This document shows positions 3,869 to 19,483 of a stretch of 23,769 nt of DNA, piece by piece. Source of the stretch: a virus; IMG/VR virus record IMGVR_UViG_3300014496_000006, positions 1 through 23,769 of that record, one strand, 5' to 3'. Each line of letters starts with the position of its first letter. Positions within the stretch are counted from its first letter, which is position 1. Both the position numbers and the translations under genes were made by a program. Under the pieces are notes generated by a model that saw nothing but the letters and a program-made list of their open reading frames with translations, had not been told where the DNA came from and searched no databases.

Positions 3869-5304
3869 GTATTCTCAGCGCCTTTACCAGCGGCATCATG
3901 GCGGCCGCCGGCACAACCGAATCTGCTGCTGGAATTGCCGGTCTCAGTGATCGGTACTTTGACAACCATTACTACGGAAACTCAGCCGGAGGAATGCACG
4001 TTACTCCACACGCCGCCAAGCGTCTGCCAGTCTTCTTTGCCTGCGTAGCCAAGCGCGCAACCTCACTGGCGATGCTTCCCTGCAAGATCATGCAGGATGA
4101 TGGCAGCGGAGGTCGCAAGCCCGCGCCTAACCATCCGCTCTACGACGTGCTCTACTCGCGTCCGAACCACATCCAATCGGCCTTCGAGTTTTGGTTCATG
4201 ATGGAGGCGCATCTCTGCATGAGGGGCAACAGCTACGCCGAGATCATCCCCGGCCCGCGCGGCGCTGTAGACGAGCTGATGCCCATGCACCCCGACCGCG
4301 TCCGCGTCGAGCGGCTCATGGGGTCCGGGCGTCTGCGCTATCGCTACAGCGATCCGCTGACCAATACGGTTCGCATCCTCATGCAGGATGAGGTATTTCA
4401 CCGCCGCGAGAACGTCGACGACGTCGGTGTCGGGCAGTCCCGCATTGAGGTTGGATGTGATGCCATCGGCCTCGGCCTTCAACGGCAAGACTACACGGCG
4501 CGCTTCATGCGCAACGATGCCACTCCCGGCGCGGTGTTCACAAACAGCCCATTCAAGACTGCTGAGGAGGAGGATGATTTTGTCGAGAGCGTAAAGAAGG
4601 CGCGCACCGGCCAGAATGCCGGTCGCCCCTATCTACTGCCACCCAGCATGGACATGAAGTCTCTGGGCTTCACCCCAGTGCAGGCGCAACTCATCGAAGC
4701 GGGCAAGCTCTCCGACCAGCAGATCTGCTCGCTCATGGGTGTGCTTCCTCACACGGTCGGCGTCGACGCGGGCAAGGCCGCAACCTTCGCCAGCACAGAG
4801 CAGTTCAACCTCATGGATGTACAGCAGCGCGTTCTTCCGCAGTGCATCGCGGCGGAGCAGGACATCTCCCGCTCGCTCATCACCAACACGGCTCGGTTCT
4901 TCGCAAAATTCTCCGTCGCATCTCTCATGCGCGGCGATGCCGAGACGCGCGGAGCGTTCTACCAGGCGCTCGCAGGCATCGGGTGGATGTGCGCCGACGA
5001 AGGCCGCGAGCTGGAGGACATGGGACCAATCCCCGGTGGCGCGGGCAAGCGTTTCTGGAATCCGCTCAACTGGGGTCTGATTGATCGTCAACCCGCAACC
5101 ACGCCACCCACGTCGACCAGTGTCGGCCTTCCAGCGCCGGAAGATGAGGACGAGGATGCGCCAGCCGATCCCACGCAGGGCGGTGACGACGACAACGAAG
5201 ACATCGCCGACGCCGATGGGGAGCAGGCCGCCGCAGTAACTCCGCAGCTCATCAAGGCTCTCGTAACCCACAACCGAACCGATCCACGCATGGAGGCAGC
5301 ATGA
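3865..5304 (+). CDS. Portal protein (HK97 family)
   Basis: From ATG 3865 the product is 479 aa; the open frame extends further upstream but would run through the preceding gene. The portal forms the dodecameric ring at the head vertex through which DNA enters and leaves. Family features are VFFACVAKRATSLAMLPCKI (about 52-71), HPLYDVLYSRPN, the L-x-x-x-G-N-S-Y-A-E-I strand (LCMRGNSYAEI), ELMPMHPDRVRV, the EVFHRR motif followed by GVGQSRIE, and F-M-R-N-D-A-T-P-G-A-V-F. The last 60 residues contain a highly acidic low-complexity stretch (EDEDEDAPADPTQGGDDDNED), likely disordered. The gene is coupled to both neighbours through 4-base overlaps. Confidence 0.94.
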   Translation: MSILSAFTSGIMAAAGTTESAAGIAGLSDRYFDNHYYGNSAGGMHVTPHAAKRLPVFFACVAKRATSLAMLPCKIMQDDGSGGRKPAPNHPLYDVLYSRPNHIQSAFEFWFMMEAHLCMRGNSYAEIIPGPRGAVDELMPMHPDRVRVERLMGSGRLRYRYSDPLTNTVRILMQDEVFHRRENVDDVGVGQSRIEVGCDAIGLGLQRQDYTARFMRNDATPGAVFTNSPFKTAEEEDDFVESVKKARTGQNAGRPYLLPPSMDMKSLGFTPVQAQLIEAGKLSDQQICSLMGVLPHTVGVDAGKAATFASTEQFNLMDVQQRVLPQCIAAEQDISRSLITNTARFFAKFSVASLMRGDAETRGAFYQALAGIGWMCADEGRELEDMGPIPGGAGKRFWNPLNWGLIDRQPATTPPTSTSVGLPAPEDEDEDAPADPTQGGDDDNEDIADADGEQAAAVTPQLIKALVTHNRTDPRMEAA

Positions 5305-6658: not shown

Positions 6659-7939
6659 GTGGACATCAAGAAGTTGCGGCAGGATCGTGCAGATGCTCTC
6701 AATGCAGCCAAGGCGCTTCATGCGGCTGCCGGAATCAACCCCATGACGGCGGAGGCGGGCGCTCAGTATGACGCGCACATGGCCAACGTCGCCTCACTCG
6801 ACGCAAATATCATCCGCGCTCAGCAGATGCTGGACGCCGAACGCACCGCACCCGCCATACAGGTAGAGGTATCCGCACCGGAAGCCTCCAAGCAGAAGTT
6901 CTCTGGCCTTGGAGAGCAGCTCCTTGCCGTCAAGAACTTCGCCATGTCTGGTGGGCGCAATCGCGACGAACGGTTGTTCGCCTCCGCACCGGGCCAGAAC
7001 GAAACTATCGACACGGAAGGCGGTTTTCTGGTCAGTGCTGAGGTCGCACCCGATCTGCTCAGCCGCACCTTCGCCGCTGGCGTCATCTCAAGCCGTTGCC
7101 GGACTCGTCCCATGAGTTCATCGCGCCTGGTGCTCAACGGCATCGACGATGCGAATCGCGTGGGTGGTCCGGCTGGCGCGGGCATTCTCGTTGTGCGAGC
7201 TGCGGAGGCCGCTGGAATCAACTTTAGCAAGTTGAAGCTGCGCCGCACGGAACTGAACGCCAATAAGTTGCTCGGCTTCTACATGGCCTCGGATGAGGTT
7301 CTGGAAGATGCTCCCGCGTTGCAGTCGGAGATCAACGATTTTTTCCCAGACGCGTTCTCGTGGGCACACGACAACGAGATCCTCAACGGAACCGGCGCGA
7401 GCCAGTTTCTCGGGGTGCTCAACTCGGGCGCTTGCGTGGTTGTGCCCAAGGACAATGGCCAGACTCTTGCCGGTAATCCCATCACCACCTCCAACATCCT
7501 CAACATGCGCACCCGCCTCTGGATTCGCTCCCGTCCCAACGCCGCATTCTTCGTCGGGCCGGATGCCGAGGCGGTTCTCTCCACACTCACTATTCCCGGC
7601 GCGGCGGGCACAGCGGTTGCGCTCTACACGCCTCCCGGCGTCGGCAGCAATAACACCAAGTACGGCCAGATGCTCGGCTTCCCGGTGATTCCGACAGAGC
7701 AGACCGCCCCGCTCGGAACGCAGGGAGACATCCTCCTCGCCGACTTCAACGAGTACATCATCGGCGAGCGCAACAGTGTGCAGTTTGCCAGTTCCATCCA
7801 TGTGCAGTTTCTCACCGATCAGCAAGTCTTCCGCTGGACTCTGCGCAACGATGGTGCGCCGCTGTGGGACAAGCCCGTCACCCAAAACAACTCGGTGAAC
7901 AAGGTTAGTCCCTTCGTCGTCCTGGCCGCCCGCACCTAG
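6659..7939 (+). CDS. Major capsid protein (HK97 fold)
   Basis: I place the start at GTG 6659, preceded by AAGGAG at 6647-6652, giving 426 aa. The frame is open further upstream only because it reads through repeat DNA. Residues 1 to about 75 are a charged helical region (KKLRQDRADALNAAKALHAA) of the kind that acts as a cleavable scaffold (delta domain). A linker follows, then the HK97-fold body: TEGGFLVSAEVAPDLL, SSRCRTRPM, the E-loop/spine region KLRRTELNANKLLGFYMASDEVLEDAPALQSEINDF.., NEILNGTGASQFLGVL, and a C-terminus with ADFNEYIIGER and FRWTLRNDGAPLWDKPV. The S49 protease immediately upstream is the likely maturation enzyme. The long leader with its own ribosome site suggests separate, high expression. 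Confidence 0.93.
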   Translation: MDIKKLRQDRADALNAAKALHAAAGINPMTAEAGAQYDAHMANVASLDANIIRAQQMLDAERTAPAIQVEVSAPEASKQKFSGLGEQLLAVKNFAMSGGRNRDERLFASAPGQNETIDTEGGFLVSAEVAPDLLSRTFAAGVISSRCRTRPMSSSRLVLNGIDDANRVGGPAGAGILVVRAAEAAGINFSKLKLRRTELNANKLLGFYMASDEVLEDAPALQSEINDFFPDAFSWAHDNEILNGTGASQFLGVLNSGACVVVPKDNGQTLAGNPITTSNILNMRTRLWIRSRPNAAFFVGPDAEAVLSTLTIPGAAGTAVALYTPPGVGSNNTKYGQMLGFPVIPTEQTAPLGTQGDILLADFNEYIIGERNSVQFASSIHVQFLTDQQVFRWTLRNDGAPLWDKPVTQNNSVNKVSPFVVLAART

Positions 7940-13407: not shown

Positions 13408-13452
13408 TGTTGCTTTCCTTCCAACATCTTCACCCTCTAATTGGAGTCTCCC

Positions 13453-16341
13453 ATGGCCGCTGAATCGTCAGTAAAAACAACTGTAGTCTATGACGTCTCC
13501 CAGATGAAGGAGGGCTCGGCGGAGACCGTCGAAGCCCTTCAAAAGGTGGCGGCTGAAGCGACCGTTACCTCCGAGGGAATGCAATCTGCTTCGATGGCCA
13601 TGGCCAAGGCCGCAGAGGAAGCCGCAGAACGGCAAAAGGCCGCTTCGAAGGGCATTGCCTCCGCAACCATCGAGGACATGGCTGCAAAAAAAGAGCTGCG
13701 CGCGGTGATGACGCAGGTCAAGCAGGGCACCGGCGATCTGGAATCGCAAACGATTCTGCTCTCGGAGGCCCAGCAAAAACAGAGCTTGACTGCGCGCAAT
13801 CTGGCTGCGGCACAGAAGATTGCCGCCGATGAGCAGGCCACCACGGCGGCAAAGGCCGCTGCGGCGGCGGAGATTGCTAACCTTGCGGCGGCTGGCTGGA
13901 CGGCATCGTTTGCGCGCATCGCTCTCTCGGCCAAGGAATCGCTCGGTTCGGTGCAGAAAAAGCTAGTCGAGACGGCGGAGACGGCCAAGCTGACAAGCGC
14001 TGGAATTGGTTCTGGCTTCGCCGCGTTAGGCGGTTTGATGGGGACGGGAATCGCTGTTGGATTTCTCAGCCATTTTGCCGACGAGATGGCTCGGGTCAAT
14101 GTCGAACTCGGGCATCTGGAAGCCAAGACAGGCATCGCAGGATCGTCCCTCGCCGGATTGCAGTTGATCGCAAAAGAATCCGGTGTAGACTTCGAAAAGA
14201 TTGCGACTGGAATAACTAAATTTGAAAAGTCTATGGACGCCGCCTCCAACGACTCCAAGCCGATGATTGAAGCCTTTGCCAAGATTGGTATCACTCAGGC
14301 GGACATCGCCAAAAGCGGGCATGACACCGAAGCGATGCTGGAGCTGGTTTCTACCGGCTTCGCCCATCACACCAATCAGGCCATCCAGACGGCGGTAGCA
14401 CAGGCGCTGTTTAGCAAAGGTGGAGCTGCGCTGGTGCCCATCCTGCAAAAGCAGGGGGAAGCTCTCGATGCGAACATGAAAAAAATGGGTGCATCGACTG
14501 GCGTCACAGAGCAGTCGATTGCAGCTTCGGAGCGCTGGGTCAAGAACATGGCTCTGGTCTCCATGGAGATACAAAAGATCGGCAACGTTGCCATCGAGAA
14601 CATGCACTATCTGGGCGGCGTATGCGAAGGCGTCTATGCCTCCATGCTCACGATCTGCGAGGGAATAACAGCGGTTATTTTGTCCACCGCGAATGGCCTT
14701 GGGTCGCTCGGCCATCTGCTGCGCGACGCCATGACTATGAACTTCGCAGCAATCGAATCCGACGCTAAAAATGTCGCAACATCATTCGCGCAGCCATGGA
14801 AGGTTGCATTCAAGGACGTTGGTGATTCTTGGAAGAGCGTTGCCGCCGACTTCAAATCCCCCACGTCTGCTCCATCGTCGAACGATACCTCCGGCGATCC
14901 CGATGATGATACAGGCAGGCCGCCCAAGAAGGGCCGCTCCGCTTCTGAATCCAGCGCAGAGAACAAGGCCGCCGAGGCTCGCCTGCGCGCGATGGAAGAG
15001 GAGCGCGCACAGCTAGAGCAGCAAGGCCAGCTCACTGCGAAGGCCGATCACGACTTCTGGGCTGCGCGCATCGACGCCTTCGCGGTTGGCTCGTCAGAAT
15101 ATCACCAGATCCAAGAGAGGATCACCCGTGACGACATCGAAGGCGCAAACAAGGCGCATGAATCCCTAGCCCAGTTCAAGCAAGATCAGAAAAAAGACGC
15201 GGAGGACGTTGCCCCAACCCTGAAGGCTGGCGAGGGCATGGATAAGATGCTCCGCGAGCAGGGCGAGGACGCACGTCGCTCTGGCGAGCGTTGGGACGCC
15301 TACTATGCCGCCATAGCTAAGGGCCAAGAGCAGGCCGCGATGCAAGCGGCTACGATGGAGGAACAAAAGGTCCATGCAGAGGAATCGGCGGGAACCATCT
15401 CCCAGCTCGGCGCGGCGCAACAGCTCGCTGCGATCCATGCCAAGGCACATCAGATCGAGTTGCAGGCGCTGCTGGATGAGCTGGCGCGACTGCAAAAGAT
15501 GGCCGATTCTGCGCCAAAGGATGGTCTCGGACGCTCCATCGTAGACCCTAAGCTGGCAACGCAGATACAGAATCTACAGAATCAGATTGGGCAGCAAAAA
15601 GGCAGCGCCGCAGCGCAGAAAGGGCAGGATCAAAAGGCCACCGCAGACGCTATGGCCAAGCCCTACCTAGCGTCCTTCAATGCCATCAACAGCGGATGGC
15701 TCAAGGTACAGAATGACCTCATCGCGGGCAATAAGCGTATTGGCCAGTCCGTCAGGCAAATCGCGTTGCAGATGACGCAGGACTTGGCTAAGCATGAAGA
15801 GGAACGGCTGGCCGACTACCTGCGTAAAGAGATCAGGAAAATTGCGGCTCACCGCGCAACGGTTGTAGCGAACAACACTACGGATGCAACAGGTGCTGCA
15901 ACTTCTAGTGCGATAGCTGCGGCAGCAGATTCTAAAGAGGGCCAGTCTGCCGCTAAGAAGGCATTCAAAAATACGTATGCTGTGGTTTCAGGCTGGCCGG
16001 TAGTTGGACCAATCTTAGCTCCTGTGCTTGGAGCGGCAGCGTTCGCCGCAGTGGCAGCATTTGAGAAGGGTGGAATCGTTGACGGTGTGCAGGGTGTGGG
16101 CGTCCCGATCCTCGCTCACGCTGGCGAGCGCGTCCTGACGACCACGCAGACCAACAACTTTGAGCGCATGGTAAACAATAGCTCTACTGGCGGCGGTACA
16201 ATCCATAATCACTTTGGGAGGAACAGCTATTCCGCATCTGGGAGCGACTTCAAATCGCAATGGGCACAACACGAAAAACATATCGTAACGAGCCTAAAAC
16301 GACTGCATCGCGAAGGAAAGTTGAATTTTCCTTCGCATTGA
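13453..16341 (+). CDS. Tail tape measure protein
   Basis: I start at ATG 13453, preceded by GGAG (13443-13446), giving 962 aa. The tape measure fixes tail length and is ejected into the host envelope ahead of DNA. The first 180 residues are an Ala/Glu/Lys-rich coiled coil. Hydrophobic segments follow at about 184-209 (GSGFAALGGLMGTGIAVGFL) and around 395-420 (GVYASMLTICEGITAVIL). A long second coiled-coil region (about 490-760) follows. The C-terminal part has WPVVGPILAPVLGAAAFAAVAAFEKGGIVDG, then VPILAHAGERVLT, the end typical of these proteins ('A-x-G-G-I-V...P-x-L-x-H-x-G-E-x-V-L'). At about 0.15 nm per residue the tail would be near 140 nm. Codon choice is somewhat AT-richer in the last 170 codons. 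Confidence 0.92.
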   Translation: MAAESSVKTTVVYDVSQMKEGSAETVEALQKVAAEATVTSEGMQSASMAMAKAAEEAAERQKAASKGIASATIEDMAAKKELRAVMTQVKQGTGDLESQTILLSEAQQKQSLTARNLAAAQKIAADEQATTAAKAAAAAEIANLAAAGWTASFARIALSAKESLGSVQKKLVETAETAKLTSAGIGSGFAALGGLMGTGIAVGFLSHFADEMARVNVELGHLEAKTGIAGSSLAGLQLIAKESGVDFEKIATGITKFEKSMDAASNDSKPMIEAFAKIGITQADIAKSGHDTEAMLELVSTGFAHHTNQAIQTAVAQALFSKGGAALVPILQKQGEALDANMKKMGASTGVTEQSIAASERWVKNMALVSMEIQKIGNVAIENMHYLGGVCEGVYASMLTICEGITAVILSTANGLGSLGHLLRDAMTMNFAAIESDAKNVATSFAQPWKVAFKDVGDSWKSVAADFKSPTSAPSSNDTSGDPDDDTGRPPKKGRSASESSAENKAAEARLRAMEEERAQLEQQGQLTAKADHDFWAARIDAFAVGSSEYHQIQERITRDDIEGANKAHESLAQFKQDQKKDAEDVAPTLKAGEGMDKMLREQGEDARRSGERWDAYYAAIAKGQEQAAMQAATMEEQKVHAEESAGTISQLGAAQQLAAIHAKAHQIELQALLDELARLQKMADSAPKDGLGRSIVDPKLATQIQNLQNQIGQQKGSAAAQKGQDQKATADAMAKPYLASFNAINSGWLKVQNDLIAGNKRIGQSVRQIALQMTQDLAKHEEERLADYLRKEIRKIAAHRATVVANNTTDATGAATSSAIAAAADSKEGQSAAKKAFKNTYAVVSGWPVVGPILAPVLGAAAFAAVAAFEKGGIVDGVQGVGVPILAHAGERVLTTTQTNNFERMVNNSSTGGGTIHNHFGRNSYSASGSDFKSQWAQHEKHIVTSLKRLHREGKLNFPSH

Positions 16342-16372
16342 CGTGGTAACATTCACGGCGAGAGGTTTTCTT

Positions 16373-17149
16373 GTGAAATCTATATCTCTGATCGTTGCTC
16401 TCGTCCTTGGATTGTCGTGCGCATCCGCAGTTGGTCAGTCGGGGCGCCCCACTAAATGCGAAGCCAACATCAACGGGTTCAAAATTCACACGATTTACAT
16501 CGTGGGTGACCAATACAACGGTGTAGTGTGGGCCTACAAGCATATTGCCGAAGAAACCTGTCTTATCCCGACCACTGACCTTTCGAAGGCAGATGCGATT
16601 CTCGATGTTCGCCCAATTATGGCATCTGGATCGCCAACTGTTACTGACGATACAACTCCGGTGTCTGTGTCTTGTTCTTCGACCGCCTCATCCAGTCATT
16701 GCTCGGATTCAACCGGGAATGTGATGGAGGTGGATTGCTCTGGCGGAAACTGTTCGTCATATTATGGTCCAGACCCGGCTAGTTCACTTGCTGGAGCGTT
16801 CAAAGCTTGGTTGTATTCCAGATGGTGGGACTCTGACGCGAGCATATACACTGTCGACCACAAATTGTTATGGAAAAGTGAAAATCAGAAGGGAGATTGG
16901 CTCGGCGCAGGTTGGATTGACATGGTGCGTTTGGGTACAAATTCTCCGGTCTGCAAAGTGGGGTATACCCAGCGCTCAAAGTATAAAAATTACCGCCATT
17001 GGGCAAGCACTCATTGTGGAGTGGAGTTCGATCCTTTAGTGAGTATTGATCTGAACTTGCGCGACCACAAGAGCGCAAAGCAGGCATCCCAAGACGAAAA
17101 AGCGGCGATGATTCAGAACGCCAAAGATGCCGCTGCAAAGCAGCCATAA
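16373..17149 (+). CDS. Secreted cysteine-containing protein of unknown function (accessory gene)
   Basis: The frame is open from GTG 16343, but GTG 16373 is a better start: GAGAGG (16360-16365 region) is well spaced and the product begins with a clean signal peptide, MKSISLIVALVLGLSCASAVGQ, with cleavage likely near ASA or GQ. The mature part of about 236 residues has eight cysteines, an even number that suits periplasmic disulfides. It contains IHTIYIVGDQ, then TTDLSKADAILDV, a Ser/Cys-rich centre and a Trp-rich stretch (AFKAWLYSRWWDSDASIYTVDHKLLW). I do not recognise a virion role; the 'KADAILDV' pattern recalls acidobacterial secreted proteins. Placed directly after the tape measure gene and followed by its own terminator, it looks like a moron gene acting in the lysogen envelope. 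Confidence 0.7.
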   Translation: MKSISLIVALVLGLSCASAVGQSGRPTKCEANINGFKIHTIYIVGDQYNGVVWAYKHIAEETCLIPTTDLSKADAILDVRPIMASGSPTVTDDTTPVSVSCSSTASSSHCSDSTGNVMEVDCSGGNCSSYYGPDPASSLAGAFKAWLYSRWWDSDASIYTVDHKLLWKSENQKGDWLGAGWIDMVRLGTNSPVCKVGYTQRSKYKNYRHWASTHCGVEFDPLVSIDLNLRDHKSAKQASQDEKAAMIQNAKDAAAKQP

Positions 17150-17179
17150 TAGTCTTATTCAGGATTCTCAAATCTTACC

Positions 17180-17203
17180 AGCCGTCCTTCGGGGCGGCTT
17201 TTT
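17180..17203 (+). terminator. Intrinsic terminator after the secreted-protein gene
   Basis: AGCCGTCC (17180-17187) and GGGCGGCT (17192-17199) pair (one G-T) around a TTCG loop, a very stable tetraloop, followed by five T. A 28-base stretch including it (17175-17202) is identical to 18726-18753. Confidence 0.88.
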
Positions 17204-17229
17204 GTTTCCCGAAAATAAGGATGGTAGCC

Positions 17230-17640
17230 ATGATTGATCTCTCGCCACAGATTGAAGGGTGTAACTTGGTTTGGTCAAAAGAGCAGTTGGAGGTCATGAA
17301 ACCGGCATTTTCGATCTCCCCGCTGTTTGATCTCTGCGTTGAACTGATTACTCCTCATACGATGGCTCAGATTTATAAGCGATTTGGTGACATGTTGTGC
17401 AATCAGCCGACGTATGCATCCGTTCTGGCATTGATCCAGTTGCGAATGATATGGGTTCCTCAGTCGTCAATTCTTCCGCCAGATCGGCTGGCGTATCGTC
17501 TTACTGTGGTCGGGGCGGATTTTGTGATTCGCAACACGGAAAGCGCATGGATTCGGATGCAAGCGCAGGACGCGAAAGACCCGGAAGGTGAAATGGCAGA
17601 GTGTAAACGCTACGCTGAATTGCTCTGTGTATCGAACTGA
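17230..17640 (+). CDS. Accessory protein of unknown function
   Basis: ATG 17230 is preceded by AAGGAT at 17217-17222 with 7-base spacing, giving 136 aa; the ATG at 17221 overlaps this site. The protein is mixed alpha/beta with three cysteines and no signal peptide or clear membrane segment. A segment PLFDLCVELITPHTMAQIYKRFGDML is helical, and PDRLAYRLTVVGADFVIRNTESAWIRMQ looks like a beta pair. No family recognised. It lies between two identical terminators together with the tandem-HIRAN gene, 20 bases ahead of it, so both are probably expressed as one small unit. Base composition is lower in GC than the virion genes. Confidence 0.6.
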   Translation: MIDLSPQIEGCNLVWSKEQLEVMKPAFSISPLFDLCVELITPHTMAQIYKRFGDMLCNQPTYASVLALIQLRMIWVPQSSILPPDRLAYRLTVVGADFVIRNTESAWIRMQAQDAKDPEGEMAECKRYAELLCVSN

Positions 17641-17659: not shown

Positions 17660-18706
17660 ATGGATTCTTCTACGGTACGGATCGTTGTTGGAGCCGCAGT
17701 TGCGGTTTTGTTCTTTTTCTTTTGGTCTAGAAAAAGGAAAAAGGAACGTAGCATTCCCCTCTCTTCAAATCCTCAAAGGGAATTGCCTCTATCGTTACTG
17801 ACGAAACCGGATAAAGCGCCCGTTCGGATGGCAATTCCGAGTGACGATGAAATCTTCGAACTTCCGGTGCGTAAGTTCTTTGCGAAGCGGGGAATATCGA
17901 GACTGTTCTATACCCATCTTGCCGGTGTTAGCTTTCGTAATGCTGATGGAAGCGAGCGGGGCCCCTTGATTTGCCAACTTGAGGAGGCTTATCAACTTGA
18001 TTTGGACCCTGATGACACCTTACCAAAATTCCCAAACGCGATAGCTGTAAATTGGAAAGGGAAACAGATTGGCTACTTGCCTGACAAGTTAGCGGGGGAA
18101 ATCCGAAGAGATGCAAAAGCTAACGGACCAAATTGGACTTGTCTTTTTCGGAGACATACGCGCCATAATAATACGAGTATGGGTCCCGGTGCCCTCCTTT
18201 GCGTGATTCGCCTCAATCCTGAACCTGAAACGGTTGTTTCTTCATCTACTGTAACGAATGCTTCCGAATCCAAACCACACATCGCAAACCGTATCGATTC
18301 CTTGGATTCCGGTTATGTGAAGACGGAGGATGATATTGCATTCGAGAAAAAATTGACAGGAAGATTTGATCGTGCAATCGAAAAAATTATTTACGATCAG
18401 GTTGCAGCGATTATGTGGAATAACGATGACGGAACCAATCGACTTTCTGTGATTCGTAAATGTAAAGTCGGTGAGTTTCTTTTGCTAGAATCTTTCGGTT
18501 CGATTTCTAGCGATGTAGATGTGGTGGGTGTCCTTCGCGAAGATGGTTCACGGTTGGGATATGTAGAAGCTAAACTTGCAGGTGAACTGAGGCGCGATGG
18601 TCTACACAAGTGGGCTTGCGTGTTTCGACGAAAAATTTTCAGAACAGATGTAAAGAGTTCTTCTGGCGCTATTCTCTGTTTAGTGCGTTTGAAGGAAAAA
18701 GACTGA
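17660..18706 (+). CDS. Membrane-anchored protein with two HIRAN domains
   Basis: From ATG 17660 the product is 348 aa; the frame is open back to GTG 17588, inside the previous gene, but without good ribosome spacing. Residues 5-22 (TVRIVVGAAVAVLFFFFW) form a transmembrane helix followed by RKRKKER, so the rest should face the cytoplasm. The first HIRAN domain (about 83-185) has LAGVSFRNADGSERG, FPNAIAVNWKGKQIGYLP and KLAGEIRRDA. The second (about 260-344) has NRLSVIRKCKVGEFLLLES, VVGVLREDGSRLGYVEAKLAGELRRDG. Both end alike: GALLCVIRL and GAILCLVRL. HIRAN domains, known from Rad5/HLTF, bind DNA 3' ends and stalled forks. This region is AT-rich (21 of 60 bases G/C in 18361-18420). An anti-defence or exclusion role is only inference. 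Confidence 0.75.
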   Translation: MDSSTVRIVVGAAVAVLFFFFWSRKRKKERSIPLSSNPQRELPLSLLTKPDKAPVRMAIPSDDEIFELPVRKFFAKRGISRLFYTHLAGVSFRNADGSERGPLICQLEEAYQLDLDPDDTLPKFPNAIAVNWKGKQIGYLPDKLAGEIRRDAKANGPNWTCLFRRHTRHNNTSMGPGALLCVIRLNPEPETVVSSSTVTNASESKPHIANRIDSLDSGYVKTEDDIAFEKKLTGRFDRAIEKIIYDQVAAIMWNNDDGTNRLSVIRKCKVGEFLLLESFGSISSDVDVVGVLREDGSRLGYVEAKLAGELRRDGLHKWACVFRRKIFRTDVKSSSGAILCLVRLKEKD

Positions 18707-18730
18707 TTCCGATTTTCGTTCTTATTTACC

Positions 18731-18753
18731 AGCCGTCCTTCGGGGCGGCTTTT
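18731..18753 (+). terminator. Intrinsic terminator after the HIRAN gene
   Basis: Same stem and TTCG loop as at 17180-17203, with four T. It closes the moron cassette 25 bases after the HIRAN stop codon and is part of the 28-base direct repeat 18726-18753. Confidence 0.88.
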
Positions 18754-18841
18754 CTATTGCCTTCACGCCAAACGTCCTAAGCGCCACGAAGTAGTGGCCT
18801 TTACGCGAAGCGTCAAATACACCACGAAGTGGGCGAAGCAC

Positions 18842-19483
18842 ATGAGCGATTGCGTATTTCCTAAGCTGCCGGGGTTGACGTTCGAAATCAAGCCGGTGCC
18901 GACCTGGTCGAACATCGTGCAGAAATCGAAGAACCGCGCGCGCACGGTCATCATGAACGATCCGTACCCGCAATGGACCTTCGAGTTGACCTATGAGTTC
19001 CTACGCGACTCCGCGCCCGCGCTTCCCGGTTCCGCGTCCAACCCAGAGAACTTCTCTGAACTAGAACAGATTGTCGGCTTCTACAACGCGCGCGGCGGCA
19101 GCTTCGATAGCTTCCTGCTCGATCCCGTCCTGCTGACTGGCCGCCCGACTGATTCCACCGTGACCGCCGCGCCGGTGGGCACGGGCGATGGCATCACCAC
19201 CACCTTCTACCTGCATCGCAACTGCGGTGGCTTTCTGGACGAAGTGCAGTCGCCCACCACCGTCTATATCAGCGTCAATGGCGTGGTGCAGGGCTCTGGC
19301 TGGCGTCAAGGCGCGGCGGGGCAGATTATCTTCCCCGTTGCCCCAGCCGCTGGCGCTGTCATCACCTGGGATGGTAGCTGGCAATGGCGCGTCTGCTTCG
19401 CCGAGGACTCGCTCGGCCTTGAGCAGTTCATGTACGAGCTCTACGAGCTGCAATCCCTCAAGTTGGAGCAGGTGAAACTGTAG
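18842..19483 (+). CDS. Distal tail protein, DUF2460-like (GTA orf12-type)
   Basis: From ATG 18842 the product is 213 aa. The frame is open to GTG 18794 upstream, but that stretch holds small repeats (GCCACGAAGTAGTGGC hairpin) and no ribosome site; the site for 18842 is also weak. The start MSDCVFPKLPGLTFEIKPVPTWSN and the DPYPQWTFELTYEFLRD strand, then LEQIVGFYNARGGSFDSFLLDP, match the layout of DUF2460 tail proteins: short N-terminal strand, 'W-x-F-x-L-x-Y', helix, then 'G-x-x-x-x-F-L-x-x-D-P'. The rest is a beta domain with GDGITTTFYLHR and YISVNGVVQGSGW. These proteins form the distal tail ring. The two genes downstream complete the same module. Confidence 0.72.
   Translation: MSDCVFPKLPGLTFEIKPVPTWSNIVQKSKNRARTVIMNDPYPQWTFELTYEFLRDSAPALPGSASNPENFSELEQIVGFYNARGGSFDSFLLDPVLLTGRPTDSTVTAAPVGTGDGITTTFYLHRNCGGFLDEVQSPTTVYISVNGVVQGSGWRQGAAGQIIFPVAPAAGAVITWDGSWQWRVCFAEDSLGLEQFMYELYELQSLKLEQVKL

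Follow-up and report, generated by a model that had tools for sequence, protein, structure and literature searches.

HIRAN domains are known mainly as the fork- and 3′-end-binding module of eukaryotic helicases. The locus described here raises the question of what two such domains do when they are encoded by a phage, behind a predicted membrane anchor and next to the tape measure protein (TMP) gene. The window, which is the whole stretch of DNA analysed, is the complete linear 23,769-bp IMG/VR record IMGVR_UViG_3300014496_000006. It contains the structural half of a siphophage, with terminase, portal, S49 protease, capsid, connector and tail genes; the tail part also holds the TMP, DUF2460, Gp84-type hub and tip proteins. 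The most similar prophage found is L006 of Bryocella elongata, whose tip protein is 60% identical to that of the window, and phage L154 is related as well (major tail protein 48% and tail chaperone 49% identical). The window fragment carries no integrase, and a temperate lifestyle is inferred from the relatives.

The tandem HIRAN protein

The gene at positions 17660..18706 (+ strand) encodes a membrane-anchored tandem-HIRAN protein of 348 aa. The ATG at 17660 has no clear Shine-Dalgarno sequence, and translation could instead begin at an in-frame GTG further upstream (17588). The first-pass annotation of this DNA, made from the letters alone, had described an N-terminal transmembrane (TM) helix, a basic stretch and two related HIRAN domains with no enzymatic domain, and these features are all borne out. 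From hydropathy and a charge count, a single TM helix is predicted at residues 5–21 (17672..17722, + strand; mean KD 2.37 over these 17 residues), followed by the basic sequence RKRKKER and then a linker. No K or R is found ahead of the segment, thus an N-out/C-in topology is expected. All TM calls, for this protein and for its relatives, were made by hydropathy only.

The Pfam HIRAN profile PF08797, proposed in that annotation as a check, matches the whole protein with E = 6.9e-8 and 32.7 bits, above the gathering score of 24.7. On single domains the profile gives 22.7 bits for the first and 13.2 for the second, each under the gathering score. A family HMM was made from 16 Acidobacteriaceae HIRAN proteins only, with the window sequence left out; it matches residues 8–206, the TM segment being inside the alignment, with E = 5.4e-23 and residues 224–346 with E = 1.9e-16, and the best of 1000 shuffled controls gives E = 0.15. 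The first HIRAN domain, with an N-terminal helical extension, is situated at 17831..18226 (+ strand) and the second, also with an N-terminal extension, at 18314..18703 (+ strand). Pfam detects no domain besides HIRAN, and no nuclease or other effector domain is present. A PADLOC hint to PDC-M03B (E = 1e-4) covers the HIRAN part only and is rejected as evidence. AlphaFold2 models built on two-row alignments, meant to show the six-stranded barrel of the HIRAN fold, have low mean pLDDT values of 40 and 47.

The two domains share 30% identity (BLASTP E = 7e-19) and are sisters in the HIRAN tree (UFBoot 95; FastTree 0.949). Intragenic tandem duplication is therefore their most likely origin, as judged from the sequences.

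The cassette and its insertion site

The HIRAN gene is the third and last gene of a three-gene cassette that lies between the TMP gene (13441..16341, + strand; phrog_2854 tape measure, E = 3.7e-11) and the DUF2460 distal-tail gene (18842..19483, + strand; PF09343, E = 2e-22), which form the left and right boundaries of the insertion. The first cassette gene (16343..17149, + strand; likely start GTG 16373) encodes a 268 aa protein with a signal peptide. Its homologues (L100–L104) are Acidobacteriaceae secreted proteins found in a few genomes, some copies being chromosomal; this soil siphophage thus likely infects acidobacteria. The L102, L103 and L104 homologues adjoin fabD on the chromosome. 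A look-alike gene near L060 proved unrelated. The second gene (17221..17640, + strand; 136–139 aa) has no relatives found, and an AMP-binding Pfam hint for it is under the cut-off and rejected as evidence.

Cassette genes have a GC content of 0.45–0.50 vs about 0.57–0.61 in most neighbouring genes, and third-position GC of the HIRAN gene is down to 0.40. The last two cassette genes are enclosed by identical intrinsic terminators on the + strand, copies of an exact 28-bp repeat (TTACCAGCCGTCCTTCGGGGCGGCTTTT) at 17175..17202 and 18726..18753 that are 1551 bp apart, the second ending the cassette. The repeat may delimit a mobile cassette or have arisen by duplication of a terminator; the exact 28-bp sequence was not found in other viral contigs. 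The two enclosed genes probably form one transcription unit. Cassette genes run co-directional with the late tail operon, and a promoter search upstream of both transcription units gave none that stands out: the best pair of hexamers matches at 9/12, no better than in shuffled sequences. An imperfect 38-bp tandem repeat (18759–18830) is located just past the cassette terminator, ahead of the DUF2460 gene.

In prophage L006 the junction between TMP and DUF2460 is closed, with the TMP gene ending at 7520 and DUF2460 starting at 7525 (5 bp), and it is near-closed in L007 (133 bp) and in phage L154 (57 bp). The cassette is therefore an insertion, as in classic morons. Together with the low GC and the cassette's own terminators, this agrees with the earlier placement of the gene in a phage accessory cassette: the HIRAN gene is an accessory, moron-type gene of a siphophage. 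In L006 itself a small reverse-strand gene (4317–4670) is found just upstream of TMP; it has a look-alike near the cassette-gene homologue in L100 and is likely another moron at the TMP flank.

Degenerate DNA-end pockets

A search of solved structures with the family profile matches the HIRAN domain of human HLTF (PDB 4XZF, 5BNH; E = 2.5e-11), which places the window protein and HLTF in the same domain family. Searches of solved structures with the single window sequence gave chance matches only. The family profile aligns to HLTF through RDPNNPYDKNAI, the family reading EPxNxxDPNAI where HLTF, a human DNA translocase, has NPYDKNAI. We take HLTF D94 to be a pocket residue with a role in the 3′-end binding region NPY93-D94-KNAI. 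Y72 and Y93 are also pocket residues, and Y93 stacks on the bound dinucleotide (PMC4666394).

The pattern P-x-[NDHEC]-x-x-[DS] is kept in 16/16 Acidobacteriaceae relatives and in both L154 domains. The window domains do not keep the HLTF pocket. At the motif (DDTLPKFPNAI in the protein) domain 1 reads DPDDTLPKFPNAIAV, where PNAI and perhaps the aromatic residue are kept, and domain 2 (FGSISSDVDVV) reads ESFGSISSDVDVVGV, where one acidic residue is kept. Most residues of the HLTF-type ssDNA 3′-end pocket are lost in both. The degeneracy leaves the protein inside the HIRAN domain family. However, it weakens the proposal of the first-pass annotation that the protein is a DNA-end sensor: with both pockets degenerate, recognition of free 3′ ends appears doubtful from the sequence, and protein contact or a non-canonical, sequence-independent mode of DNA binding, perhaps through another surface, would be expected instead.

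Relatives and their placement

Searches of viral contigs and of genome contigs with back-translated 8-mers found no direct relative of the full 348-aa protein, nor was one found among INPHARED phages. Across 398 Acidobacteriaceae genomes, PF08797 matches at 18 places that are spread over 16 genomes, and 11 of the 16 HIRAN proteins examined there display a strong hydrophobic helix. An IMG/VR scan for the motif GV[ST]xxNxDGxSRQ gave 51 contigs, 51/51 of them HIRAN, which fall into 33 clusters at 70% identity; a TM helix is found in 20 of the 33 clusters, a fraction that applies to the one HIRAN subfamily picked by the motif and not to HIRANs overall. Genes in the related loci were called by a simple codon-score script. 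The pattern match in L005 is a tail protein and not a HIRAN protein.

Phage L154 encodes a TM protein with two HIRAN domains between the tail chaperone gene and TMP, directly upstream of the latter. Thus the same rare architecture is present in two related phages on opposite sides of TMP, downstream in the window and upstream in L154. The two tandems do not group together in the tree, where support for L154 is weak, so from these sequences the duplication may have occurred twice. A tandem HIRAN protein without TM is found among the head-tail genes of another phage (L145:1598–2503); its pocket motif is kept in domain 1 and not in domain 2. The literature search found no paper on a membrane-anchored tandem-HIRAN phage system, and to this extent the view that the layout is undescribed stands. 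It is not unique, however, since L154 is a second example and temperate phages commonly encode HIRANs with a membrane anchor.

Prophages with TM-HIRAN proteins are found in the Bryocella, G394 and G480 genomes. The Bryocella gene belongs to the prophage that also holds L006 and lies 1.3 kb away from its integrase end. In G394 and G480 single-HIRAN TM proteins are encoded between the tail-chaperone gene and TMP; for G394 the TMP and a tail protein are confirmed by PHROGs, and for G480 only position, length and neighbours point to the chaperone and TMP genes. Each of these HIRAN genes has a 4-bp overlap with a downstream gene for a second small TM protein that precedes TMP (L065:13629–14297; L111:8276–8848), and the two partner proteins show no similarity to each other.

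Other TM-HIRAN genes adjoin lysogeny or lysis genes. The L119 gene adjoins a CI-type repressor, an IrrE-type peptidase and an integrase; the L148 gene has an amidase on one side and an integrase on the other; and L137 and L161 adjoin a repressor-like gene. CI/Cro-like regulators adjoin the HIRAN genes of L119, L151, L130, L137 and L161, and the L134 gene adjoins a recombinase. Anchored HIRANs are also found on the chromosome without evident phage genes, beside rpoC (L056) and near ruvA (L089). Homologues are not limited to housekeeping contexts, a pattern that the first-pass annotation had set against its own reading; many lie in prophages and some are chromosomal. Overall, more than 60 relatives were found, and the window protein falls in a group of HIRAN proteins of temperate phages that are tethered to the membrane, widespread and unstudied.

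A family of soluble HIRAN proteins of about 149–276 aa is conserved in acidobacterial-type phages, where its genes close the late tail/lysis block (L061, L098, L069:8416–9057, L112, L129:261–710, L139, L160, L165:5375–5821 and others), adjoining an integrase wherever one is in view. G480 holds both a soluble and a TM-HIRAN protein. A HIRAN gene adjoins a DnaQ/exonuclease-like gene in L106 (G526, a mobile element) and in L081 from Escherichia phage 899 (record PV533660), in the latter case between replication and portal genes; an exonuclease-HIRAN pair is possible at these two places.

Possible functions

The explanation we favour, tentatively and at somewhat less than an even chance, is by analogy: the protein may be an inner-membrane superinfection-exclusion or entry-interference factor acting at the site of DNA entry. 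It would sit in the inner membrane, N-out, with both HIRAN domains in the cytoplasm, where siphophage DNA and TMP emerge. There it would stall the injection of related phages by binding a component of the entry process: TMP, a channel protein of the host or the DNA itself. Binding would be by protein contact or by a non-canonical, sequence-independent mode on DNA, not at free 3′-OH ends. The reading draws on the anchor, the expected N-out topology, the TMP-adjacent insertion and the recurrence of relatives in lysogeny modules, and the position of the cassette is compatible with action at the entry site, as had been suggested from the sequence. Several points count against it: no promoter stands out, so that expression from a prophage is only presumed, and the genes are co-directional with the late tail operon; the fragment has no integrase; the protein has no effector domain; no relatives are known for the 139-aa partner; and some anchored HIRANs, such as those of L056 and L089, are chromosomal.

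Two known systems bear on this. HK97 gp15 excludes superinfecting phages and is predicted to reside in the inner membrane; hybrids of HK97 that have the tail-tube and TMP genes of HK022 escape it (PMC10883804). The gp15 gene is a TM moron with a terminator, found between chaperone and TMP. Like gp15, the window protein has an N-terminal TM segment and is encoded in a terminator-bounded moron beside TMP, and the HIRAN genes of L154, G394 and G480 occupy the gp15 site itself. Unlike the window protein, gp15 has 62 aa and no HIRAN, and BLASTP gives no alignment between the two; the window insertion is downstream of TMP and shows no evident promoter. SNIPE, an N-out single-pass protein with a cytoplasmic DNA-binding part, acts at the injection site and contacts TMP (PMC13190303). 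The window protein shares the single N-terminal TM, the expected N-out topology, a DNA-binding-type cytoplasmic domain and, presumably, action at the entry site. However, SNIPE consists of DUF4041 and a GIY-YIG nuclease, neither of which Pfam finds in the window protein, and is a bacterial defence gene whereas the window protein is phage-encoded.

The closest alternative, though an unlikely one, is a late-expressed, tail-associated protein. Produced along with the tail operon and bound to TMP, it might be ejected into the next host's inner membrane, where it would guide or protect the incoming genome. Its gene is beside TMP, on either side, in related phages, lies on the same strand as the tail genes without a clear separate promoter, and encodes a nucleic-acid-binding fold. 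However, two terminators set the unit apart from the tail operon, the gene is missing from related, functional-looking tail modules, and relatives also adjoin integrase, repressor or lysis genes.

A counter-defence role appears rather improbable. Here the anchored HIRANs would shield or mask incoming or replicating phage DNA from membrane-associated host nucleases or end-processing complexes. Predicted host defence proteins use HIRAN (HipN/HipL and diDNase clusters; PMC8262856, PMC11706625), a phage copy could compete with these, and the 3′-end motif is kept in some phage relatives. The window pockets, however, are both degenerate, and many relatives occupy positions typical of lysogeny genes and not of early lytic modules. 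HIRAN is a proposed sensor of phage DNA ends in HipN/HipL (PMC8262856), but these carry HipS-like domains and/or a kinase of HipA-type toxin-antitoxin systems, neither of which is found in the HIRAN protein, the cassette or the neighbouring genes scanned.

It is more improbable again that the gene is a passenger of host origin without a phage-related function, that is, lysogenic conversion for another trait. The family of the neighbouring secreted protein has chromosomal copies and so do membrane-anchored HIRANs, but placement near TMP, repressor or integrase recurs in independent phages.

The least probable explanation is a repair or replication tether, which would keep DNA ends or forks of the phage or the host at the membrane while DNA is replicated. 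In its favour, HLTF HIRAN binds DNA and acts in replication-fork remodelling (PMC4666394), and other phages have stand-alone HIRANs among their replication and repair genes (PMC6469090, PMC9206674). Against it, the window gene belongs to an optional cassette of the tail module and not to a replication module, and neither domain keeps the pocket residues Y93/D94 as a pair. The HIRAN proteins of the Pamexvirus-type phages (DLP4 gp19, AXL1 gp56 and PaMx28; PMC6469090, PMC9206674), which share the domain with the window protein, are small, have a single HIRAN and are listed under DNA replication/repair, with no anchor or tandem reported there.

Implications for phage HIRAN proteins

The exclusion reading may extend beyond this phage, although we put this forward more hesitantly. 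Membrane-anchored HIRANs may form an unrecognised, widespread class of prophage exclusion factors whose targets at the inner membrane are phage DNA or TMP, with the tandem forms shifted from DNA-end to entry-machinery binding. Prokaryotic HIRANs were termed uncharacterised in a 2024 paper (PMC11090510). The recurrence of a membrane-tethered HIRAN by TMP or in the lysogeny module, sites used by phages for genes that exclude competitors, offers a concrete hypothesis for the function of HIRAN in phages. Membrane-tethered HIRANs would thus be a new candidate family of entry-exclusion proteins, open to standard plaque and injection assays.
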